Positions 480 to 49,265 of a stretch of 64,000 nucleotides of DNA are shown here, piece by piece. The DNA comes from a bacterium. Its GTDB lineage: Bacteria > SZUA-79 > Acidulodesulfobacterales > Acidulodesulfobacteraceae. The DNA lies in the NCBI GenBank assembly GCA_021825865.1, contig JAKAFU010000002.1, forward strand, positions 62,001 to 126,000, given 5' to 3'. The first letter of the stretch is position 1. Each line of letters opens with the position of its first letter. Position numbers and translations under genes: made by a program. Below the pieces are notes generated by a model. That model was not told the origin of the DNA. It saw nothing but the letters and a program-made list of their open reading frames with translations, and searched no databases.

Positions 480-1283
480 TCAAGCTTTAAATTCGCATAA
501 TTCTTCATATTCTATCAGCTCGACTACCGTCGGATTTTCTCCGCAAAGCGGACAAGTCTTGTCTTGTCTCAGTTTCATTTCTGTAAATTTCATATCTAGG
601 GCATCGTATATTAATAATCTGCCGTTTAATGTCGTCCCAATGCCCAGTATTATTTTTATGGCTTCGTTTGCCTGTATTGCTCCGATAACACCCGGCAATA
701 CGCCCAAAACGCCGGCTTCTTGGCAGCTTGGAACTAATCCTGCCGGCGGAGGCGAAGGGAATAAACACCTGTAGCAAGGACCATTGTCGGGCAGAAACAC
801 TGTCGCCTGTCCGTCAAATCTAAAAATAGAACCGTAAACAAGGGGTTTTCCGTAAAAATGGCATGCATCGTTAATCAGATATCGTGTAGGAAAATTATCG
901 GTAGCATCTATTATTACGTCATAATCTGCAATAAGTTCCTGTATATTGTCGGAAGATATTTTTTCTTTATATGTTATAACTTTGACATCGGGGGTAATCC
1001 TTTCAATAGAATCTTTTGCCGAGTCGACTTTATATCTTCCTACGTCTTTATTACCGTGCCATATCTGTCTTTGCAAGTTTGAAAGGTCAACAGTGTCAAA
1101 ATCGGCTATGCCGAGTGTCCCTATTCCTGCAGCTCCTAGATATAAACCGCACGGAGCTCCTAAACCGCCTGCGCCTATCAAAAGGACTTTAGAGGATAAT
1201 AATTTTTCCTGACCTTCTCCGCCGACCTCAGGCAATATTATATGTCTGGCGTATCTTTTAATCTGTTCTTCCGTAAAATCCAA
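480..1283 (-). CDS. ThiF/MoeB/HesA-family E1-like adenylyltransferase
   Basis: This enzyme family adenylates the C-terminal glycine of a ubiquitin-like sulfur carrier (MoaD, ThiS) so it can be turned into a thiocarboxylate. The nucleotide-binding motif GAGGLGAP is near residue 40, the DFDTVDLSNLQRQ segment follows, IIDATDNFPTRY carries the catalytic-site aspartate region, and two CxxC pairs (CYRC and CPLC) form the structural zinc site. About 267-271 residues is normal for MoeB/ThiF without a rhodanese domain. A GTG at 1295 is possible, but GGAGG lies at that spot and is 5 bases before a TTG at 1283, which I prefer. It follows the MoaD-NIL gene by about 30-40 bases and is its likely partner. 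Confidence 0.9.
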   Translation of the reverse strand: MDFTEEQIKRYARHIILPEVGGEGQEKLLSSKVLLIGAGGLGAPCGLYLGAAGIGTLGIADFDTVDLSNLQRQIWHGNKDVGRYKVDSAKDSIERITPDVKVITYKEKISSDNIQELIADYDVIIDATDNFPTRYLINDACHFYGKPLVYGSIFRFDGQATVFLPDNGPCYRCLFPSPPPAGLVPSCQEAGVLGVLPGVIGAIQANEAIKIILGIGTTLNGRLLIYDALDMKFTEMKLRQDKTCPLCGENPTVVELIEYEELCEFKA

Positions 1284-1323
1284 AATGACCTCCACTCATA
1301 AAATAACGTAAATAAAATTTAAT

Positions 1324-1839
1324 TTATTCAATGATATCCAATACGATAGGCTCAACGCTCACGCCTTTAGATTCTAGGAATTTTATTGCTTTTTCTATAT
1401 CTGTCTGTTCACCTTCGACTTCAAGAGCAATTATACCTATATCGTTAGAAATACTGGCACTTCTGATGTTAGTTATTATATTGTAATTTTTACCTATTAA
1501 ATATATCAGCGGGTCTTTAATTACTTCCTGAGGATAATTTAAATAAAATTTTTTTTTTTCTGAAGTTCCCCCCGCAATTGCAGGTATTATAGAAATTGTA
1601 TCTCCGTCTTCTACCTTTGAATCGTTATTGTCTATAAATCTTATATCTTCGTCGTTTAAATAAACATTAACGAATCTCCTGACCTGGTCATTTTTTTCGC
1701 ATATTCTTTCTTTTATTCCGGGATAAGTTTTTTCAAGGTCGTTAATAATTTCTAAAATATTAGTTCCCGCAGCATCAACTTCCGATTTGCCTCCGGTTAA
1801 TGTTCTTAAAGGCGTCGGTATTCTAACAATTATAGCCAT
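1324..1839 (-). CDS. MoaD/ThiS-type sulfur carrier fused to a NIL domain
   Basis: Residues 1-91 form a ubiquitin-like MoaD/ThiS domain ending in IPAIAGG (Gly90-Gly91), the diglycine that E1-like enzymes adenylate. Unlike a mature MoaD, the chain continues: residues about 97-171 look like a NIL domain, the ligand-binding fold known from the C-terminus of the methionine importer ATPase MetN. The diglycine would therefore have to be exposed by proteolysis before thiocarboxylation, as is known for CysO (Mec+) and HcyS (HcyD). A good ribosome binding site (GGAGGAG) precedes the ATG. Position between the threonine-synthase-like and E1-like genes and below a SAM riboswitch suggests sulfur delivery for homocysteine; that function is inference. 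Confidence 0.85.
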   Translation of the reverse strand: MAIIVRIPTPLRTLTGGKSEVDAAGTNILEIINDLEKTYPGIKERICEKNDQVRRFVNVYLNDEDIRFIDNNDSKVEDGDTISIIPAIAGGTSEKKKFYLNYPQEVIKDPLIYLIGKNYNIITNIRSASISNDIGIIALEVEGEQTDIEKAIKFLESKGVSVEPIVLDIIE

Positions 1840-1895
1840 ATCTCCTCCAGACTATTATTAATTAAATAAATTATTTAATTTGTTTTTTTATTATT

Positions 1896-3149
1896 TCATT
1901 TTTTGTTTTTTTCTTTCTCCCGTACTTTTTTTAGGACGTCTTCAAATTCTTCCAAATTGGGCTTTATAACGGGTGCTTCGTCTAATCTGCCGTTAAGCGC
2001 CTCTAATGTCTTTAAACCGTTACCTGTAATAGCAAGTACTGTCGTTTCATTTTTATTGATATACCCCTTTTCGATAAGCTTTTTAGCAACTGCTACCGTA
2101 ACGCCTCCGGCTGTTTCTGTAAATATACCCTCGGTAGATGCCAGCAGTTTCATGCCTTCCACTATTTCATCGTCTGTAGCATCTTCACCGAATCCGCCGC
2201 TTTTATGCATTAAGTCTGCAGCATAATAACCGTCGGCAGGATTGCCTATTGCAAGAGATTTTGCAATGGTATCCGGTGTTTTTACAGGTTTAATAAATTC
2301 TCTTTTCTCTTTTACCGTCGAAGTAATCGGGTTACATCCGGTAGCCTGTGCTCCGAAAATTTTGGTATTATGCTTTTCTATTAATCCGCAGTATTCAAAT
2401 TCTTCAATTGATTTCCCGACTTTTGTAATGAGCGAACCTCCGGCCATTGGGACAACAACGTTATCCGGAGCTTTAAAACCCAATTGTTCAAGCATTTCAA
2501 AAGTAAGAGTTTTGGAACCTTCGGCATAGTAAGGTCTTAAGTTTATATTTACAAATGCCCAGTTATGCTTGCCTGCGATTTCAGTGCAAAGTCTATTTAC
2601 TTTATCATAACTTCCTTCAATTTTGACTAAATTAGTGCCGTATATTAACGTTCCGAGAACCTTGCCGGTTTCTAGATTTGAAGGAATAAACACAAAACAT
2701 TCGAAACCCGAAGCAGCGGAACATGCGGCGGTCGCATTTGCAAGATTACCGGTTGAGGCGCATGCAATTACCTTAAAACCAAATTCTTTTGCTTTGGCTA
2801 TAGCAACGGAAACGACCCTGTCTTTAAAAGAAAGGGTGGGAAAGTTGACCGCATCATTTTTTATGTATAAATGTTTAACCCCTAAAACTTTGGCAAGATT
2901 ATCCGCCTTAACTAAAGGGGTAAACCCCACATCCCTGCCTATTTCTATATCGCCTTTAATGGGAAGCAATTCCCTGTATCTCCACATATTCGGCTGCCTT
3001 GACTTAATTTTTTCGACGCTTATATTTTTTTTGATTTTATCATAATCGTAATCCACCTCTAATGGACCAAAGCAATAATCACAGACATAAAGAGCGCTGT
3101 CAGGATATTCCTTGCCGCATTCCCTGCATTTTAATCCTTTTACAAACAT
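1896..3149 (-). CDS. thrC: Threonine synthase-family PLP enzyme (possible homocysteine synthase)
   Basis: A 417-residue fold-type II PLP enzyme related to threonine synthase, which converts O-phosphohomoserine to threonine. Residues 8-26 hold an N-terminal zinc ribbon (CREC and CDYC). The PLP lysine is in LSFKDR (Lys109), the STGNLANATAA loop binds phosphate, and AGGSLITK and GNGLKTL follow. The usual NPTxSFKDRG is altered to NFPTLSFKDRVV, which hints at a divergent subfamily. It is the first gene after a SAM-I riboswitch and precedes a sulfur carrier, E1 and TusA. Threonine genes are not normally SAM-controlled, so a phosphohomoserine-to-homocysteine reaction using carrier thiocarboxylate is plausible. 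Plain threonine synthase remains the conservative call. Confidence 0.85.
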   Translation of the reverse strand: MFVKGLKCRECGKEYPDSALYVCDYCFGPLEVDYDYDKIKKNISVEKIKSRQPNMWRYRELLPIKGDIEIGRDVGFTPLVKADNLAKVLGVKHLYIKNDAVNFPTLSFKDRVVSVAIAKAKEFGFKVIACASTGNLANATAACSAASGFECFVFIPSNLETGKVLGTLIYGTNLVKIEGSYDKVNRLCTEIAGKHNWAFVNINLRPYYAEGSKTLTFEMLEQLGFKAPDNVVVPMAGGSLITKVGKSIEEFEYCGLIEKHNTKIFGAQATGCNPITSTVKEKREFIKPVKTPDTIAKSLAIGNPADGYYAADLMHKSGGFGEDATDDEIVEGMKLLASTEGIFTETAGGVTVAVAKKLIEKGYINKNETTVLAITGNGLKTLEALNGRLDEAPVIKPNLEEFEDVLKKVREKEKNKK

Positions 3150-3313: not shown

Positions 3314-3480
3314 CTTCTTATCTTCCAGGTATAATCATTGTTTAATCCGACGATGTCATTATGGCGTTATACACGTAAACGCCATATCCCTGCGGGAATT
3401 AGCACCGAAATTTAACTTTCACATTTTCGGTTGCTGCGGTTTCAAACGGGCCCGTCCCTTCACCGCTCTTGATAAGAAAT
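3314..3480 (-). promoter_or_regulatory. SAM-I (S-box) riboswitch
   Basis: On the minus strand the leader carries the hallmark S-box blocks in order: CTTATCAAGAG opening P1, GGTGAAGGGACGGGCCC, TTTGAAACC, GCAGCAACC, GGTGCTAATTCC with GCAGG, and GATAAGAAG closing P1. P1 can form at least nine pairs between about 3471-3479 and 3314-3322. SAM-I riboswitches repress methionine, cysteine and SAM genes when SAM is plentiful. Here it is followed by an intrinsic terminator and then by the threonine-synthase-like/MoaD-NIL/E1/TusA operon, which places that operon in sulfur amino acid metabolism. Confidence 0.95.
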
Positions 3481-41543: not shown

Positions 41544-41752
41544 CGCATTTTAACGTTAAAAAAATAATATTAATTGATGTATTGAAGAATATTTTAAATT
41601 TTTATGTTTTGCCTATTTATAAACGTTATGTTTTATGCTATACTTAACATGGTTTATTATATTGTTATATCATTGTAATTATAAAATATAATCATAAATA
41701 ATGATAGACTTAGTTTTTGTATTTTATCATAACAAAAAAATCAGGAGTTAAG

Positions 41753-43153
41753 ATGCAGGTTAACGATATAGATTTCAATAAAATCTTTAAAATTATAGGA
41801 ACGTCGGAAGATGATTTTATTGATATATTCTTTGAATCCAATATATCAAATTTTCTTTCAAATGAGAATAAAAAATTAGAAAAAGCCATATCAGGAGTTT
41901 CCGGAGGCGCCGGATTAAGGCTTATTTCAGAAAAAAAATCATATTATGCATTTACGAATAATATTGATGAGCAAAATTTATTAGAAATAGGCAAAAATTT
42001 AAACAGAATAGCAAAAACTAATAGAACAAATAATAATTTCAATAAGTTAGATTTGAATTTTAAAGAATCTAAAGCAAAAATAGATATCCCTGTTTTAAAA
42101 GAAGTATTAAATGTTTCTATGAATGAAAAAATAAAAAAAATAGACGATGCAGTAAAATTTTCATGGGGATACGATAAAAGAATTTTGCAGGCTAATGTTT
42201 TATACAAAGATTATAAACAAGATGTTATTATAGTAAATTCCGAAGGAAATATTGCTAAAGACAGCAGAGAAATTATTACTTTTTTTGTAAATGTCGTAGC
42301 GTCTAACGGCAAAAAAACAGAAATGGGTTACGAACCTGCTTCGGCATTCATGGGATTTGAATTTTTCGATACGGTAGACCCTGTTGAAATTGCAAGAAAA
42401 GCATGCAGCAGAGCAATAACTTTGCTTGATGCGCCTTTTGCTCCTTCTGGAACGATGCCGGTCGTACTGTCAAGCGAAGCAGGCGGAACCATGATACATG
42501 AAGCAATAGGACATGGTTTGGAAGCTGATATAGCAGGCGGCGGTTTAAGCGTATACTCCAATAAAATCGGTAAAGAAGTTGCTTCAAAATTGGTTACCGT
42601 CATTGACGATTCTTCATTAATAGGAAAAAGAGGCTCATACAGATTTGACGATGAAGGTACCGTGTCAAATAAAAATATATTAGTCGAAAACGGTATATTA
42701 AAGAAGTATATGTCTGACCGTTTGTCTAATATTAAATACGGATATGAATTGACCGGCAACGGCAGAAGGGAGTCTTACGAACACCAGCCTATAGTCAGGA
42801 TGTCAAATACAATGATAGCAAAGGGTAAAAGTACGCCCGAAGATATAATTAAAACTGTAGATAAAGGACTGTTTGTCAAAAAAATGGGAGGCGGTCAGGT
42901 AAATACCGTTACAGGTGATTTTGTATTTGAAGTAATGGAAGGATATATTTTAAAAAATGGCGCAGTCTGCGAAGCCGTAAGCGGCGCAACTTTAATGGGT
43001 AATGGACCTGAAATATTAAACAACATAGATATGATCGGAAACGATATGGGTTACAGCGTGGGCACCTGCGGCAAAGACGGGCAAGGAGCGCCCGTGTCCG
43101 ACGGACAGCCTACCTTAAGGATACCTTCTATAGTTGTCGGCGGCAAAAGTTAA
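41753..43153 (+). CDS. tldD: TldD-family metalloprotease
   Basis: TldD with its partner TldE/PmbA is a heterodimeric protease acting on unfolded peptides, for example in microcin and PqqA-like maturation. The zinc motif HEAIGH is in GTMIHEAIGHGLEADIAGG and the remaining family blocks YEHQPIVRMSNT and GNGPEIL are present. I use the ATG at 41753, which has an AGGAG site 5-6 bases before it, rather than the in-frame codon at 41717. At about 466 residues it is normal for TldD. No tldE/pmbA gene is adjacent. Confidence 0.93.
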   Translation: MQVNDIDFNKIFKIIGTSEDDFIDIFFESNISNFLSNENKKLEKAISGVSGGAGLRLISEKKSYYAFTNNIDEQNLLEIGKNLNRIAKTNRTNNNFNKLDLNFKESKAKIDIPVLKEVLNVSMNEKIKKIDDAVKFSWGYDKRILQANVLYKDYKQDVIIVNSEGNIAKDSREIITFFVNVVASNGKKTEMGYEPASAFMGFEFFDTVDPVEIARKACSRAITLLDAPFAPSGTMPVVLSSEAGGTMIHEAIGHGLEADIAGGGLSVYSNKIGKEVASKLVTVIDDSSLIGKRGSYRFDDEGTVSNKNILVENGILKKYMSDRLSNIKYGYELTGNGRRESYEHQPIVRMSNTMIAKGKSTPEDIIKTVDKGLFVKKMGGGQVNTVTGDFVFEVMEGYILKNGAVCEAVSGATLMGNGPEILNNIDMIGNDMGYSVGTCGKDGQGAPVSDGQPTLRIPSIVVGGKS

Positions 43154-43225: not shown

Positions 43226-44647
43226 ATGGAAAGAATAAAAGATTGGAAGTCATATCAACATACTTTAAACAGAAGCAAAAGAAAAAATTCTAATATTTTA
43301 AGGCCGTTATACATTTTTATATTTATCATTGCATTTTTAGTTATTTCAATAGGCGGTATAAAATTATTCTTTTTTGTAAAAAATTATTATGCAAAATCAG
43401 TATTAAACAAACAGCAGACATTTTTAGGCACAGGAATAAGGCCTATCAAATTTGACGGCGCCGGTAATAATAAGAAAATAAAAACGTTATCGGCATCTTC
43501 AAGCACAAATGGCTCAACCGTACTCGGAAAAAACTATTTTAACAGTCATAATTTTTCTATTAAATCATTGCAAAAATATTTTGCAACCCATTCTCCAAAA
43601 TTTAACACTGTTAAAAACGGGCATTACGTGCAAAAGCTCGGGGAATATACAATAGTCTATACGCTCGACCCTGTTGTACAAAATGAGGCAAAAAAGGTAT
43701 TAACGGAATACAGTGTGCCATTCGGAGCTGTTGCGGCAGTCAATCCTGAAACAGGCGCAGTTCTTGGATTATATTCATATGCAAGTAATAAATCTAAAAA
43801 ATCCGAAATTTCCGGTTTAAAAGCTTACAGACCGGGTTCGCTCGCAAAAATTGTCACGGCATCGGCAGCAATTGAATCTAAAGGATTTTATCCCGGCTTC
43901 AACGTGTGTTATAACGGAGGATTATATGGAACAAATAAAAATTACTGGATTCAGAATATAAATACGGGAAATAATAGAATATCTTTCAGATTGGCTTTTG
44001 CGAAATCATGCGATATTGCTTTCGGTAAAATTGCCGGATATTATGTGGGACAAAAATTATTGCAAAAATATTTTGATAAATATTATTTTAACCGCAAGAT
44101 ACCTTTTATTTTAAATTTACAAGGCAGTACCTCAAAAGTGCCTTCTGCTTCGGAATTTTATAATCTGGAATTGACGGGTGCAGGTTTTAAAAACGCCAGA
44201 GTTACCCCTGTTCTTGCTGCACTGATGTCGGCAGCCGTGATTAACGGCGGAAAAATGCTTGACCCGTATATTATTAAAGAAGTAATAAACTCTAAAGGTC
44301 ATATAGTATATAAACATAAAGGCGTAAGGGTTTTAGATAATCCTATTACTCCTTCAACCGCTGCTATTTTAAAAGAACTAATGATCAGCACTGTAACAAA
44401 AGGGATAGGCAGGTATGATTTTTATAATAGTTACAATCAATATATGCTTCCGGGTATTATAACCGGAGGAAAGACGGGGACTATATCAGGGAATCATCCT
44501 ACCGGCTTATACCAGTGGTTTACGGGTTTTGGAGAAACGAAGAACAAAAAAATAGCAGTTTCTGCTTTAGTTGTCGAAAAACCGGTATGGAGAATCGAAG
44601 GCGGCGGAGTTTCAGAAAAAATTATTTATTCATATTTCTTTAAATAA
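43226..44647 (+). CDS. Penicillin-binding transpeptidase-like protein
   Basis: A 473-residue membrane-anchored protein with one N-terminal helix (about 28-52) and a penicillin-binding transpeptidase domain from about residue 140. The catalytic serine Ser205 is in PGSLAK, the third motif is KTG at 426-428 (TGGKTGTISG), and the second motif is SCD at 261-263 where SxN is usual. That Asp substitution may change beta-lactam reactivity or indicate a specialised enzyme. Residues 55-110 are Ser/Asn/Lys-rich spacer. No glycosyltransferase domain is present. It is followed by a large radical SAM gene. Confidence 0.82.
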   Translation: MERIKDWKSYQHTLNRSKRKNSNILRPLYIFIFIIAFLVISIGGIKLFFFVKNYYAKSVLNKQQTFLGTGIRPIKFDGAGNNKKIKTLSASSSTNGSTVLGKNYFNSHNFSIKSLQKYFATHSPKFNTVKNGHYVQKLGEYTIVYTLDPVVQNEAKKVLTEYSVPFGAVAAVNPETGAVLGLYSYASNKSKKSEISGLKAYRPGSLAKIVTASAAIESKGFYPGFNVCYNGGLYGTNKNYWIQNINTGNNRISFRLAFAKSCDIAFGKIAGYYVGQKLLQKYFDKYYFNRKIPFILNLQGSTSKVPSASEFYNLELTGAGFKNARVTPVLAALMSAAVINGGKMLDPYIIKEVINSKGHIVYKHKGVRVLDNPITPSTAAILKELMISTVTKGIGRYDFYNSYNQYMLPGIITGGKTGTISGNHPTGLYQWFTGFGETKNKKIAVSALVVEKPVWRIEGGGVSEKIIYSYFFK

Positions 44648-44770: not shown

Positions 44771-47332
44771 TTGCGAAAAAATAAGCGACTTGCCTTTTAT
44801 GTTGATTATGAACGTTTTAAGTCAAAAGAAGCCCCGCCGATATTATTTTTTATAGCATATCTGAGGAATATAGGATTTTCCGTAGACTTTTTTATAAGCG
44901 AAGATGATTTATTTAAATCGCTTAAAAAAGCTGAAAAGACCGGCAATGTTAATGTTCATGATATAAAAAACAGACAAAATACAGATAATAAAAATTATTT
45001 ACGGAAATACGATGCGTGTCTGTTGTCTCTGATGAGTGCCGACAGTTTGAGAAATATACTTCAAACGGCTATTAAAATTAAAAATATAGACCCTTTCATC
45101 GTTAATATACTTGGAGGAACCGGTGTTTACGGCTATATTAAAGAACTTATTAATGCCGAGGGGATAGATATTGTTATAGAAGGGGACGCCGAAAAAACAC
45201 TTCCCGCTATCTTAGATTCAATAAAAACATATGAGCAATATGATAAACAGAGTAAATCACAAATAAATTCAGAAGTCTTTAAATCAGAAGTCTTTAAGAA
45301 ATTTCCTGAGAATACAAAATCCAATATTAAAAAAGACGAAGCTTATTTTTGCACAGAGAAGCACATGGAACTTTTATTTAAAAATAGGGGCAGCTTTTCT
45401 TCGCCTGTGGTGCAGATACCGGATGAAATTTTTTTTGAAAGAACCGTATCCGTATCCGCAGTCAATTCATTAAATTACGGCAGCTGCAATTCCAGCTATA
45501 TTGAAGCGGAGATAAAGGATTCGGTCTGCAAGGATGACGGTAATTCATTCAGTTTTAAATGCAGCGTACCTGTATCGGATGCTGCCGTGAAGCTTAATGA
45601 CGGCACTATACGGTATTTTGAAAGAATAAACCGCGGCGGCAGCGCTTTTCTGAAATTTTATAATCAGTATAAAGATTTAATATCCGAGGCTGAATTTGAA
45701 AATTTAATGATGCCGCATCCGACTGAAGAAGAAATAAATGAGCAATATACTTCATATCCGTGGGATATCTATGATTATTATAAATTTGAGTCAATCGGAA
45801 TTTATGCGCAGAGAGGCTGCAGCTGGGGAAGGTGTTCATATTGCAGTATAGTAAATTATAATTACAGGAAATTGAATGTACAATTTATATTGCAGGTATT
45901 AAACGAAGCAAAAAATCACAATGTTTTCGGCGTAAGTTTTGATGATGACCTTTTTGTGCAAAATAAAAAATGGATTAATTACCTTCTTGATTCAATTATT
46001 TTACATAATATAGACAAAAGGTTCAGCTTTACCGCTATGGTAAAAGTTGAGCACGTTCACGATATAGCCCTTCTTAATAAGCTTAAAAAAGCTAATTTTT
46101 CAAAAATACAAATAGGGGTTGAAAGCTTTTTGCCGGAAAAAGTAAGTTTTTTTAGAAAAACAAAAGCAGGAAAAGAGGCGATTTATATAAAAAAAGCAAA
46201 AGAGATTATAGCATACAGTGCTTCAATAGGTTTAATACCATCTTCTTTTATAATTCTAACAACGCCGGAAAAAAAATTTGGATTATTTGATATAATTAAT
46301 GAAATTGGCGAAATTATAGATATATTGATAAATGTTTACGGAAAGTATAAGATTATGCCTATTTTTGGGTATAACGACTTTATTACGGCTTACCCCAATG
46401 CTCCGCTGTTAAAAGAACATATATATTCAAACTTCACGGTAGCGATTTCAGGCTATATTTCTAAAAAAAATATAGATACGGATATTAATGACACAGATAC
46501 CGTCAGCGAAGGCAGTATAAATATTGAAAATATTAGAAATGACAATGCGGCTAATGACAATTTAGACAAACAAGCCTCAGCCGTGAAAAACCAGTGCGGT
46601 AAAAATGAAATAAATCTGCTGAATTTAAAAACTATCAAAATTCCTTATATGTATAAATTTTATAATTTTCGCGTGACGCATTTTATAGATGCGCTTTTTA
46701 GAAGTTATAGCGAAAAAAATGCAGACGCTGATATTTCTTGCAGAATAAGTGACGATACAGATTCATCTCATATCACATCCGGAGGCGTTCTTGCCGATTC
46801 AAATTCAAATATTTCCGATAATATTATTAATAATAATCAGAATAAAAAAGATAATAACAATAAAAAAGCAGATAAACTAAAGAAAAAACCGGAGGAATAC
46901 ATTAGACAGGAACAGGAATCTGAAGAAAATATAATGTTTTTGCACACAGAGAAAATTTTAAATTCTTTAGATAATACATTTGATATGTACGGAACGCCGT
47001 TGTTTGTGCTTTATGAAATATTAGACGAGTTAGAATCAAATATAAAAGAAAATATATACAGCGAAGATTTAATTAAAAAAATATTTAAAGAATATTTTAA
47101 TTATAATAATGATAATAGTTTAAGCAATTATATGCTAAACTTTAAAAAATTAATCGCAGCAAATAAAATTGAACCGGATAAAGCGCTTAATGTTTTCAAA
47201 TATTTTTTTAAAGGCGTAGATTATATCAAAGAAAACCAGGAAAAACAGAAAGACAGAGGAAAAGAAATTATAAAAATTCTTGACGGAAGACTTGAATATA
47301 TTAAAAAGCAGTATGCTCTCAACAATCAGTAA
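44771..47332 (+). CDS. Large B12-binding-type radical SAM protein
   Basis: An 853-residue protein starting at a TTG. Residues about 20-150 resemble a cobalamin-binding-type Rossmann domain (ILGGTGVYGYIKELI, VIEGDAEKTLPAILD) but without an evident DxHxxG cobalamin histidine. The radical SAM core follows with RGCSWGRCSYCS, in which Cys350, Cys355 and Cys358 form a CX4CX2C motif instead of CX3CX2C. GVSFDDDLFV and IQIGVESFLPEKVSFFRK are typical radical SAM blocks. The C-terminal third is rich in Asn, Lys and Asp, with a segment of about 80 low-complexity residues near 675-715. Substrate unknown; the neighbours do not suggest one. Confidence 0.78.
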   Translation: MRKNKRLAFYVDYERFKSKEAPPILFFIAYLRNIGFSVDFFISEDDLFKSLKKAEKTGNVNVHDIKNRQNTDNKNYLRKYDACLLSLMSADSLRNILQTAIKIKNIDPFIVNILGGTGVYGYIKELINAEGIDIVIEGDAEKTLPAILDSIKTYEQYDKQSKSQINSEVFKSEVFKKFPENTKSNIKKDEAYFCTEKHMELLFKNRGSFSSPVVQIPDEIFFERTVSVSAVNSLNYGSCNSSYIEAEIKDSVCKDDGNSFSFKCSVPVSDAAVKLNDGTIRYFERINRGGSAFLKFYNQYKDLISEAEFENLMMPHPTEEEINEQYTSYPWDIYDYYKFESIGIYAQRGCSWGRCSYCSIVNYNYRKLNVQFILQVLNEAKNHNVFGVSFDDDLFVQNKKWINYLLDSIILHNIDKRFSFTAMVKVEHVHDIALLNKLKKANFSKIQIGVESFLPEKVSFFRKTKAGKEAIYIKKAKEIIAYSASIGLIPSSFIILTTPEKKFGLFDIINEIGEIIDILINVYGKYKIMPIFGYNDFITAYPNAPLLKEHIYSNFTVAISGYISKKNIDTDINDTDTVSEGSINIENIRNDNAANDNLDKQASAVKNQCGKNEINLLNLKTIKIPYMYKFYNFRVTHFIDALFRSYSEKNADADISCRISDDTDSSHITSGGVLADSNSNISDNIINNNQNKKDNNNKKADKLKKKPEEYIRQEQESEENIMFLHTEKILNSLDNTFDMYGTPLFVLYEILDELESNIKENIYSEDLIKKIFKEYFNYNNDNSLSNYMLNFKKLIAANKIEPDKALNVFKYFFKGVDYIKENQEKQKDRGKEIIKILDGRLEYIKKQYALNNQ

Positions 47333-47561: not shown

Positions 47562-49265
47562 ATGATTACAAAATTATACAGCGCTACATTTTTTGGAATA
47601 GATGCGATTATTGTGGATGTCGAGGTATTTATTACAACCGGAATACCGGGGGTAATGATTGTCGGTTTACCTGATGCATCAACTAAAGAATCTAAAGATA
47701 GGGTTAAGGCGGCAATAAAAAATTCAGGTTTTGAATATCCTGCAAGAAAAATAACGATAAACCTTGCCCCTGCCGATATTAGAAAATCAGGACCTATTTT
47801 TGACCTTCCGTTAGCGTTAGGGCTATTGATATCGGCAAGATTGCTGACCCCCGTGATTAATCTGGAAGATTACATAATAGCCGGAGAACTTTCTCTTAAC
47901 GGAAACATTAATAAAATTGATGGAGTAATAGCTTTAAGCATGTTAGCAAAAAAATTAAATAAAAAAATTATTGTTCCGTATGAAAATTTAAACGAAACAA
48001 AATATTTAGGTGTAGAATACTATTGTTTTAATACGTTAAGCGAGGTTTGCGATTTTATAACCGGTGCAGATAAAAGGGATAACCTATCCGTCGGCGATAA
48101 TAGCAGCAGCGATGAATCGTTAAAGTTAATCAGCAAACTTCAAACATCCGCCGAAGCAATAAACGGACATGATTTATTTTACGATAAAAACGGCGGCAGC
48201 ACTAACGCCGAATGTGATTGCGGGTGCAGACCGCCTGATGATTGCGGCGCGGCAGTCATTAATAGCCTTAATGGTAATAAGACAGCCGATAAAAATAATT
48301 ACTACCCCGATTTTTCTAACATAAAAGGTCACACGACTGTTAAAAGAGCAATGGAGATAGCCGTTGCCGGGCATCATAACATTCTTATAATAGGACCTCC
48401 TGGCAGCGGCAAAACGATGATTGCTCAAGGCGCAGCAGGAATATTACCGCCGCTGTCCCTTGAAGAAGCCATAGAACTGACTAATATTTACAGTTTTTCC
48501 CACAAAAAAATTAATATAGATAACGGTTTGATAACCTCAAGACCTTTTATGCCCGTTCATTATTCCGTTACAATACCGGCATTAATAGGCGGCGGAGCGA
48601 ACCCTATACCTGGAGATGTCAGTCTTGCTCATAACGGTGTGTTATTTATAGATGAGTTTTCGGAAATGAATAAAAAAACATTGGATAGTTTGAGGCAGCC
48701 GATGGAAGATAAGATAATACATATATCGAGGAATAGATTTTCAGTGTCTTTTCCATGTGATTTCATGCTTATCGCAGCAATGAATCCGTGCCCCTGCGGT
48801 TATTTAGGAGACCATACGCATGAGTGCAGATGTTCATCCGCCGATATTTATAAATTTTACAACAAATTGTCGGGACCTATAATAGACAGATTTGATATTT
48901 TTGCAGAAGTATATTCCGAAAGTTTAAATATTATTTCAAATAATATATCCGAAGAAAGCTCCGAAGAGGTTAGGGACAGAATTAATAAAGCGGTTCAATT
49001 GCAGAATAGAAGATTTGAAAATATGAATAAAAAATTTAATGCTTCAATAACAAGCTCAGAAATAGATAAATTTATAAATATATCGGATGAAACTCTTAGT
49101 TTTTATAAGTCTGCCGCTGAAAGTTTGAAATTATCTTCAAGAGGATATTTCAGAATTTTAAAAGTAGCCAGAACTATTGCCGATATTGACGACAAAGAAA
49201 ACGTTGATGAGCCGTCAATACTTGAAGCGCTAAATTATAGAAATACAAAATTTTTAGGTGTATAA
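47562..49265 (+). CDS. comM: ComM/YifB Mg-chelatase-like AAA ATPase with Cys-rich insertion
   Basis: ComM is a hexameric helicase-like ATPase that helps branch migration during natural transformation. The N-terminal Lon-substrate-like domain (SATFFGIDAIIVDVE, VGLPDASTKESKDRVKAAI) is followed by an AAA domain with Walker A GPPGSGKT at about 278-285 and the Walker B-like NGVLFIDEFSEM. The C-terminal YifB domain has IDRFDIFAEV. A Ser/Asn/Asp-rich insertion at about 169-247 lies between domains and contains a CDCGC...C cluster (Cys218, 220, 222, 228) that could bind metal. At 567 residues it is about 60 longer than usual. Confidence 0.92.
   Translation: MITKLYSATFFGIDAIIVDVEVFITTGIPGVMIVGLPDASTKESKDRVKAAIKNSGFEYPARKITINLAPADIRKSGPIFDLPLALGLLISARLLTPVINLEDYIIAGELSLNGNINKIDGVIALSMLAKKLNKKIIVPYENLNETKYLGVEYYCFNTLSEVCDFITGADKRDNLSVGDNSSSDESLKLISKLQTSAEAINGHDLFYDKNGGSTNAECDCGCRPPDDCGAAVINSLNGNKTADKNNYYPDFSNIKGHTTVKRAMEIAVAGHHNILIIGPPGSGKTMIAQGAAGILPPLSLEEAIELTNIYSFSHKKINIDNGLITSRPFMPVHYSVTIPALIGGGANPIPGDVSLAHNGVLFIDEFSEMNKKTLDSLRQPMEDKIIHISRNRFSVSFPCDFMLIAAMNPCPCGYLGDHTHECRCSSADIYKFYNKLSGPIIDRFDIFAEVYSESLNIISNNISEESSEEVRDRINKAVQLQNRRFENMNKKFNASITSSEIDKFINISDETLSFYKSAAESLKLSSRGYFRILKVARTIADIDDKENVDEPSILEALNYRNTKFLGV

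Follow-up and report, generated by a model that had tools for sequence, protein, structure and literature searches.

A probable class 1 cobalamin-dependent radical SAM enzyme with a CX4CX2C cluster motif from a sparsely distributed subfamily

The gene at positions 44771..47332 (+) of the window, the whole 64-kb stretch of DNA analysed here from the 1.9-Mb genome of an acidophilic sulfur bacterium, almost certainly encodes a class 1 cobalamin-dependent radical SAM enzyme of the architecture known from OxsB, TsrM and TokK. Methyl transfer to carbon is, on balance, the favoured reaction. The family is best read as a lineage-restricted, sparsely spread new subfamily of a known class, and the surprise is smaller than first appeared. 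The cysteine spacing, the missing histidine and the low complexity that had made the protein look odd are all real, but each proved to be mostly ordinary and to have precedents. With it, the B12 radical SAM enzymes gain a sparsely spread, uncharacterised subfamily; the finding alone opens no new reaction or system.

Gene and domain organisation

The open reading frame comprises 853 codons with a TTG start, as described in the first-pass annotation, and all of the features given below lie on the same (+) strand. An N-terminal cobalamin-type Rossmann domain (residues ~1-150, 44771..45220), delimited using the Pfam B12-binding profile, fold search and dN/dS, is followed by a linker (residues ~151-329, 45221..45757) that was assigned from low complexity and alignment and contains a variable stretch at residues 159-190. 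The radical SAM core (residues ~330-560, 45758..46450) was defined by the Pfam Radical_SAM profile, invariant alignment columns and dN/dS. It carries the cluster motif CSWGRCSYC (45818..45844), in which Cys 350, 355 and 358 are spaced CX4CX2C as originally noted, and the motifs YPWD, QRGC, DDxFVQ and GVES are invariant in the alignment. Two low-complexity inserts are situated at residues ~562-615 (46454..46615) and ~645-720 (46703..46930), the former missing and the latter largely missing in insert-poor orthologs. The C-terminal helical domain (residues ~720-853, 46928..47329) was recognised from helices present in both structure models and from the match to OxsB.

Both Pfam profiles matched the window protein below their cut-offs, Radical_SAM over residues 346-497 at 26.5 bits (cut-off 29.5) and B12-binding at 22 bits (cut-off 32.1). 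The B12-binding cut-off was passed by an ortholog from a congener (G006), with its neighbours in frame. Two low-complexity regions had been counted initially; these are present, but the protein has more than two (~159-190, 563-607 and 659-716). Low complexity was rejected as a novelty, since at least one such stretch was found in 23 of the 26 scored window proteins of at least 300 amino acids, among which this protein ranks eighth. Low-complexity stretches also occur in primase-like and sigma-factor-like proteins of the window.

Predicted structure and comparison with known enzymes

The AlphaFold model of the window protein was poor (pLDDT 56.9), its best Foldseek matches being TsrM (8.8e-7) and OxsB (2.3e-5). 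A model of an insert-poor ortholog of 723 amino acids (L041:8416-10587), built from a 20-row alignment, attained a pLDDT of 75.6 and a pTM of 0.73. OxsB was the best Foldseek match of this model (E 4.0e-11), followed by TsrM, TokK and AprD4. Comparison with OxsB in VIA-align yielded a Z score of 19.4 over 417 aligned residues at 4.3 A, the alignment reaching residue 716 of 723 and covering all three domains. Z scores of 18.5 for AprD4, 18.2 for MgmA, 17.9 for both TokK and CysS and 17.3 for TsrM were obtained, against a background of approximately 14 for MiaB-like proteins and of approximately 10 and below for the first single-domain matches and unrelated folds. The Cys loop is of low confidence in both models (residues 347-366 of the window protein, 313-325 of the ortholog), so that neither gives a readable geometry for this longer loop. 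Sequence searches returned no solved structure at E up to 1, and the matches in the viral structure library (E up to 0.001) were all to generic radical SAM proteins of phages.

The sequence and the predicted fold together demonstrate a cobalamin-type Rossmann domain, a CX4CX2C radical SAM barrel and a C-terminal helical domain. The Rossmann domain, three-Cys barrel and C-terminal helices that characterise class 1 cobalamin-dependent radical SAM enzymes are all present in the predicted fold, in the same order as in OxsB, TsrM, TokK and CysS. In support of the large B12-type radical SAM protein originally proposed, profile search, fold match and a relative from another phylum that scores above both Pfam cut-offs (described below) are in agreement. 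The window protein nevertheless differs from OxsB, TsrM, TokK and CysS in its low fold-alignment identity to them (9-15%), its CX4CX2C spacing in place of the usual CX3CX2C, its large linker and its low-complexity inserts.

The cobalamin-like domain had been remarked upon for lacking the usual histidine, and DxHxxG is indeed absent from all 14 rows of the family alignment. According to a review (PMC13331322), class 1 enzymes with solved structures dispense with a His ligand to cobalamin; in OxsB, TsrM and TokK, an Asn, Arg or Trp of the loop after strand 3 is located at or under the cobalt. The window protein would likewise have no His under the cobalt; the missing residue is thus to be expected, and it was rejected as a novelty.

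No equivalog cut-off was reached in the NCBIfam search of the window protein, in which the best scores were below 40 bits and the protein fell into no well-characterised family with a known reaction. The best match was the hopanoid C-3 methylase HpnR (TIGR04367), confined to the radical SAM core and scoring 36.8 bits against a cut-off of 650. BchE (TIGR02026) scored 34.1 bits against 481.35, and rSAM_ocin_1 (TIGR03975), a family of RiPP maturation radical SAM C-methyltransferases with differently spaced cysteines, 32.4 bits against 281.85. NF033070, used as the test for AprD4-like proteins, was absent among the nine NCBIfam matches.

Conservation and distribution of the family

Orthologs were detected by profile search in 14 of 30 genomes of the phylum, comprising all seven of the genus and seven of the 23 elsewhere. 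Thirteen of the 15 phylum copies were aligned; a second copy in G023 and that of G024, a fragment at a contig end that falls short of the motif, were left out. For one aligned copy (G016) a stop was reported inside the matched stretch, although its 742-residue reading frame is open. The Cys triplet is invariant in the 13 aligned copies and in the relative from outside the phylum, and CX4CX2C thus replaces the canonical CX3CX2C spacing in 14 of 14 rows. The second G023 copy also matches the pattern RGCxWGxCx[FY]C.

NG86 estimates of dN/dS against five congeners ranged from 0.06 to 0.10 over the radical SAM core (residues 330-560) and from 0.06 to 0.17 over the B12 domain (residues 1-150). Values were approximately 0.31-0.41 in the linker (residues 160-290), 0.36-1.26 where defined in the insert at ~562-615 and 0.36-0.90 in that at ~645-720. 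The low ratios in the two catalytic domains and the higher ratios in the inserts indicate that the domains are held while the inserts drift. Judged from these ratios, which exclude chance, the conserved reading frame is a real enzyme. Orthologs of 709-726 amino acids lack most of the inserts in the alignment, and the inserts are probably dispensable; an ortholog of this compact size is well suited to biochemistry.

CobS scored above its cut-off in 27 of the 30 phylum genomes, and 13 of the 14 carriers of the gene (all but G024) are among these. Its presence was taken as a putative supply of cofactor and counted in favour of cobalamin use. CobS does not track the gene itself, since the 27 genomes include both carriers and non-carriers.

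In a sample of 386 genomes drawn from many families, the sole close relative outside the phylum was found in a single genome (G382; E 1.3e-29), where it forms an open reading frame of 618 amino acids (L086:8562-10418) scoring 120.6 bits. This relative passes both Pfam cut-offs (B12-binding 41.3 bits against 32.1), shares the domain order and has the CX4CX2C, YPWD and DDLFVQ motifs, but differs in belonging to another phylum and in having no large inserts. An LGG match within it is an early chance match and not its strand-4 loop. TIGR03975 is its best NCBIfam match, at 52.5 bits far below the cut-off of 281.85. Within its order the relative is present in one of 35 genomes, and within its phylum a strong match was obtained in one of 95, plus three weak generic ones. 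When another 388 genomes, chosen around G382, were sampled, only weak barrel matches were obtained beyond G382 itself and G011, a member of the window's phylum. A tree inferred from 51 radical SAM cores, in which the placement of single long branches is unsure, unites the 13 phylum members and the G382 relative in one clade (support 100/99).

The scan of genome contigs used patterns that were too specific, all 12 loci belonging to the same group, and is uninformative on wider spread. No relative was found in the scan of viral contigs or in plasmid searches, the latter returning only one generic CX3CX2C protein from Bradyrhizobium, and a mobile or viral origin was rejected on these grounds. In the literature collection searched, no paper was found that pairs the name of the order with radical SAM.

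Gene neighbourhood

In the window the gene lies downstream of a gene with a penicillin-binding-protein transpeptidase domain (pbp; 43226..44647, +; PF00905, E 1.5e-35) and upstream of a comM-like gene (47562..49265, +), in agreement with the neighbours first named; a tldD-like gene precedes pbp (41717..43153, +). The order tldD-pbp-radical SAM-comM is kept in all seven genomes of the genus, and in two of them (G002 and G006), although not in the window, pbp and the radical SAM gene share 14 bases. In other genera the gene lies next to relA/spoT and a Tll0287-like sensor, a JAB-domain/cysteine/MoeB-like cluster or a DsrE-like reading frame, the last recognised by eye. In the second arrangement (G016, L037:10104-14580), genes for a JAB-domain protease and for cysteine-synthase-like, MoeB-like and ThiS-like proteins lead into the radical SAM gene; the JAB-domain gene, 11 bases upstream, is supported by a profile and the other three were named by eye. 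The description of the gene as standing alone holds only in part, given the order kept in the genus and the overlap with pbp in two congeners. As no neighbour is common to all genera, the enzyme is likely to work in these bacteria without a dedicated partner encoded alongside it. TldD was rejected as a specific partner, the PmbA/TldD domain being present in all 30 phylum genomes.

Within the 64-kb window no cobalamin riboswitch was found at the gathering score, and inspection by eye of the gaps on either side of the gene in the window gave no convincing small precursor-peptide reading frame. A SAM riboswitch (RF00162, 57.2 bits) is located at 3381-3478 (-), upstream of threonine-synthase-like, ThiS/NIL-like and MoeB-like genes at 480-3149 (named by eye).

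The G382 relative follows a radical SAM/SPASM protein whose top NCBIfam matches, below cut-off, are to RiPP maturases (TIGR04463, 120 bits against 525), and is itself followed by a reading frame of 134 amino acids that matches the start of TIGR03975 at 27.4 bits. The SPASM neighbour hints weakly at a peptide as the substrate; it is the sole such hint and comes from a different organism. The surrounding region (L086:5583-11449) is a radical SAM module flanked by two partial tatD copies of 534 bases that are 93% identical. It contains a 73-residue reading frame ending near ICECC, the SPASM radical SAM gene, the CX4CX2C B12 radical SAM gene and a truncated B12 reading frame, and is possibly mobile. 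The 73-residue frame lies directly upstream of the SPASM gene, has no family match and could encode a precursor peptide.

Proposed reaction and alternative explanations

In the proposed mechanism, the three Cys residues would ligate a [4Fe-4S] cluster. Cleavage of one SAM by this cluster would produce a 5'-deoxyadenosyl radical, which would abstract hydrogen from the substrate at an unreactive carbon. Methylcobalamin would then donate its methyl group and be re-methylated by a second SAM. No histidine of the protein would coordinate the cobalt, beneath which the invariant stretch Leu-Met-Ser (residues 87-89), located after strand 3, is predicted to lie; the loop after this strand reads LSLMS or MSLMS in the 13 phylum members.

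C-methylation is considered the likeliest reaction because methylation is, according to PMC11659888, the commonest reaction of the class. By analogy with OxsB, a member of the same class that is not a methyltransferase according to PMC13331322, methylation is not certain, and a non-methylating cobalamin-dependent enzyme, catalysing a rearrangement of the OxsB type, a ring contraction or a reaction of the BchE type, is an unlikely alternative but the weightiest of those considered. Foldseek and VIA-align both rank OxsB first, with a match that covers all three domains, and BchE is among the NCBIfam matches. However, fold rank does not separate reactions, OxsB, MgmA, TokK, CysS and TsrM lying within approximately 2 Z of one another, and the prevalence of methylation in the class likewise speaks against this alternative. 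Less probable again is that the Rossmann domain is a relic without cobalamin binding and the protein an ordinary radical SAM enzyme, for instance a dehydratase or an epimerase. The sub-threshold B12-binding score of the window protein is consistent with a relic, as is the position of AprD4, a radical SAM dehydratase that is not known to use cobalamin, as the second entry type in VIA-align. Purifying selection on the B12 domain is, however, about as strong as on the core, and the B12-binding cut-off is passed by both the G382 relative and the G006 ortholog. In view of the matches to AprD4, which is not known to use cobalamin, and to OxsB, which is no methyltransferase, a fold of the B12 type is proof of neither the use of cobalamin nor a methylation reaction.

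The conserved gene order in the genus and the overlap seen in two congeners might also point to a pair formed by pbp and the radical SAM gene that works on cell-wall or membrane material. This is very improbable, given that the neighbours differ outside the genus, that this pbp was not found in the sequence stretches examined there and that the adjoining comM and tldD are housekeeping genes. C-methylation by a class 1 enzyme remains the preferred reading. There is a slim chance that the 13 phylum members and the G382 relative constitute a separate branch directed at peptides or proteins, in which CX4CX2C would be a cluster loop that evolved repeatedly and not a chance insertion. In acidophilic sulfur bacteria such an enzyme would, on its own and with no gene cluster dedicated to it, methylate a carbon of a cellular protein or rearrange that protein in the manner of OxsB.

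Occurrence of the CX4CX2C spacing

The pattern RGCxWGxCx[FY]C was matched in 24 of the 386 genomes, of which 13 belong to the window's phylum and 11 lie outside it. Following the search for CX4CX2C relatives suggested in the first-pass annotation, 16 further B12-type proteins with this spacing, two of which are near-identical orthologs, were taken from these and other matches. In the tree, 14 of these proteins group in one clade (99/96), and the remaining two fall singly among CX3CX2C proteins, apart from the family of the window protein. The CX4CX2C proteins seen have the loop signature C-x-[WY]-[GSA]-[KRHQ]-C-x-[FY]-C, which is biased towards W and G because the set came partly from a pattern demanding these residues; the variants SWSR, YYGR and DYAQ came from other searches or from neighbouring genes.

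GenD1, the gentamicin C-4'' methyltransferase, is likened to the window protein by description as a B12-type radical SAM protein with CX4CX2C, but is an actinobacterial enzyme of an antibiotic pathway. Its Cx4Cx2C motif and its cobalamin/radical SAM C-methylation, demonstrated for gentamicin biosynthesis, are reported in PMC4340712. Judging by titles, the papers found in the literature collection for CX4CX2C with radical SAM concern no such B12 enzyme beyond GenD1. On the sequences compared, the spacing appears unusual but not unique, occurring in several branches of the B12-type radical SAM tree, so that searches or annotation insisting on CX3CX2C would miss such proteins.

Two congeners (G001 and G006; L112:3259-5193 and L113:1973-3916) also encode another CX4CX2C B12-type radical SAM protein, which is distinct from the one described here and falls in a different clade; its genes adjoin a glycosyltransferase-family-2-like reading frame. 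Two adjacent CX4CX2C B12-type radical SAM genes, encoding approximately 600 amino acids each, are present in G034 (L111:7944-11666), and two further genomes of the same family (G182 and G321) also contain several matches to the CX4CX2C pattern.
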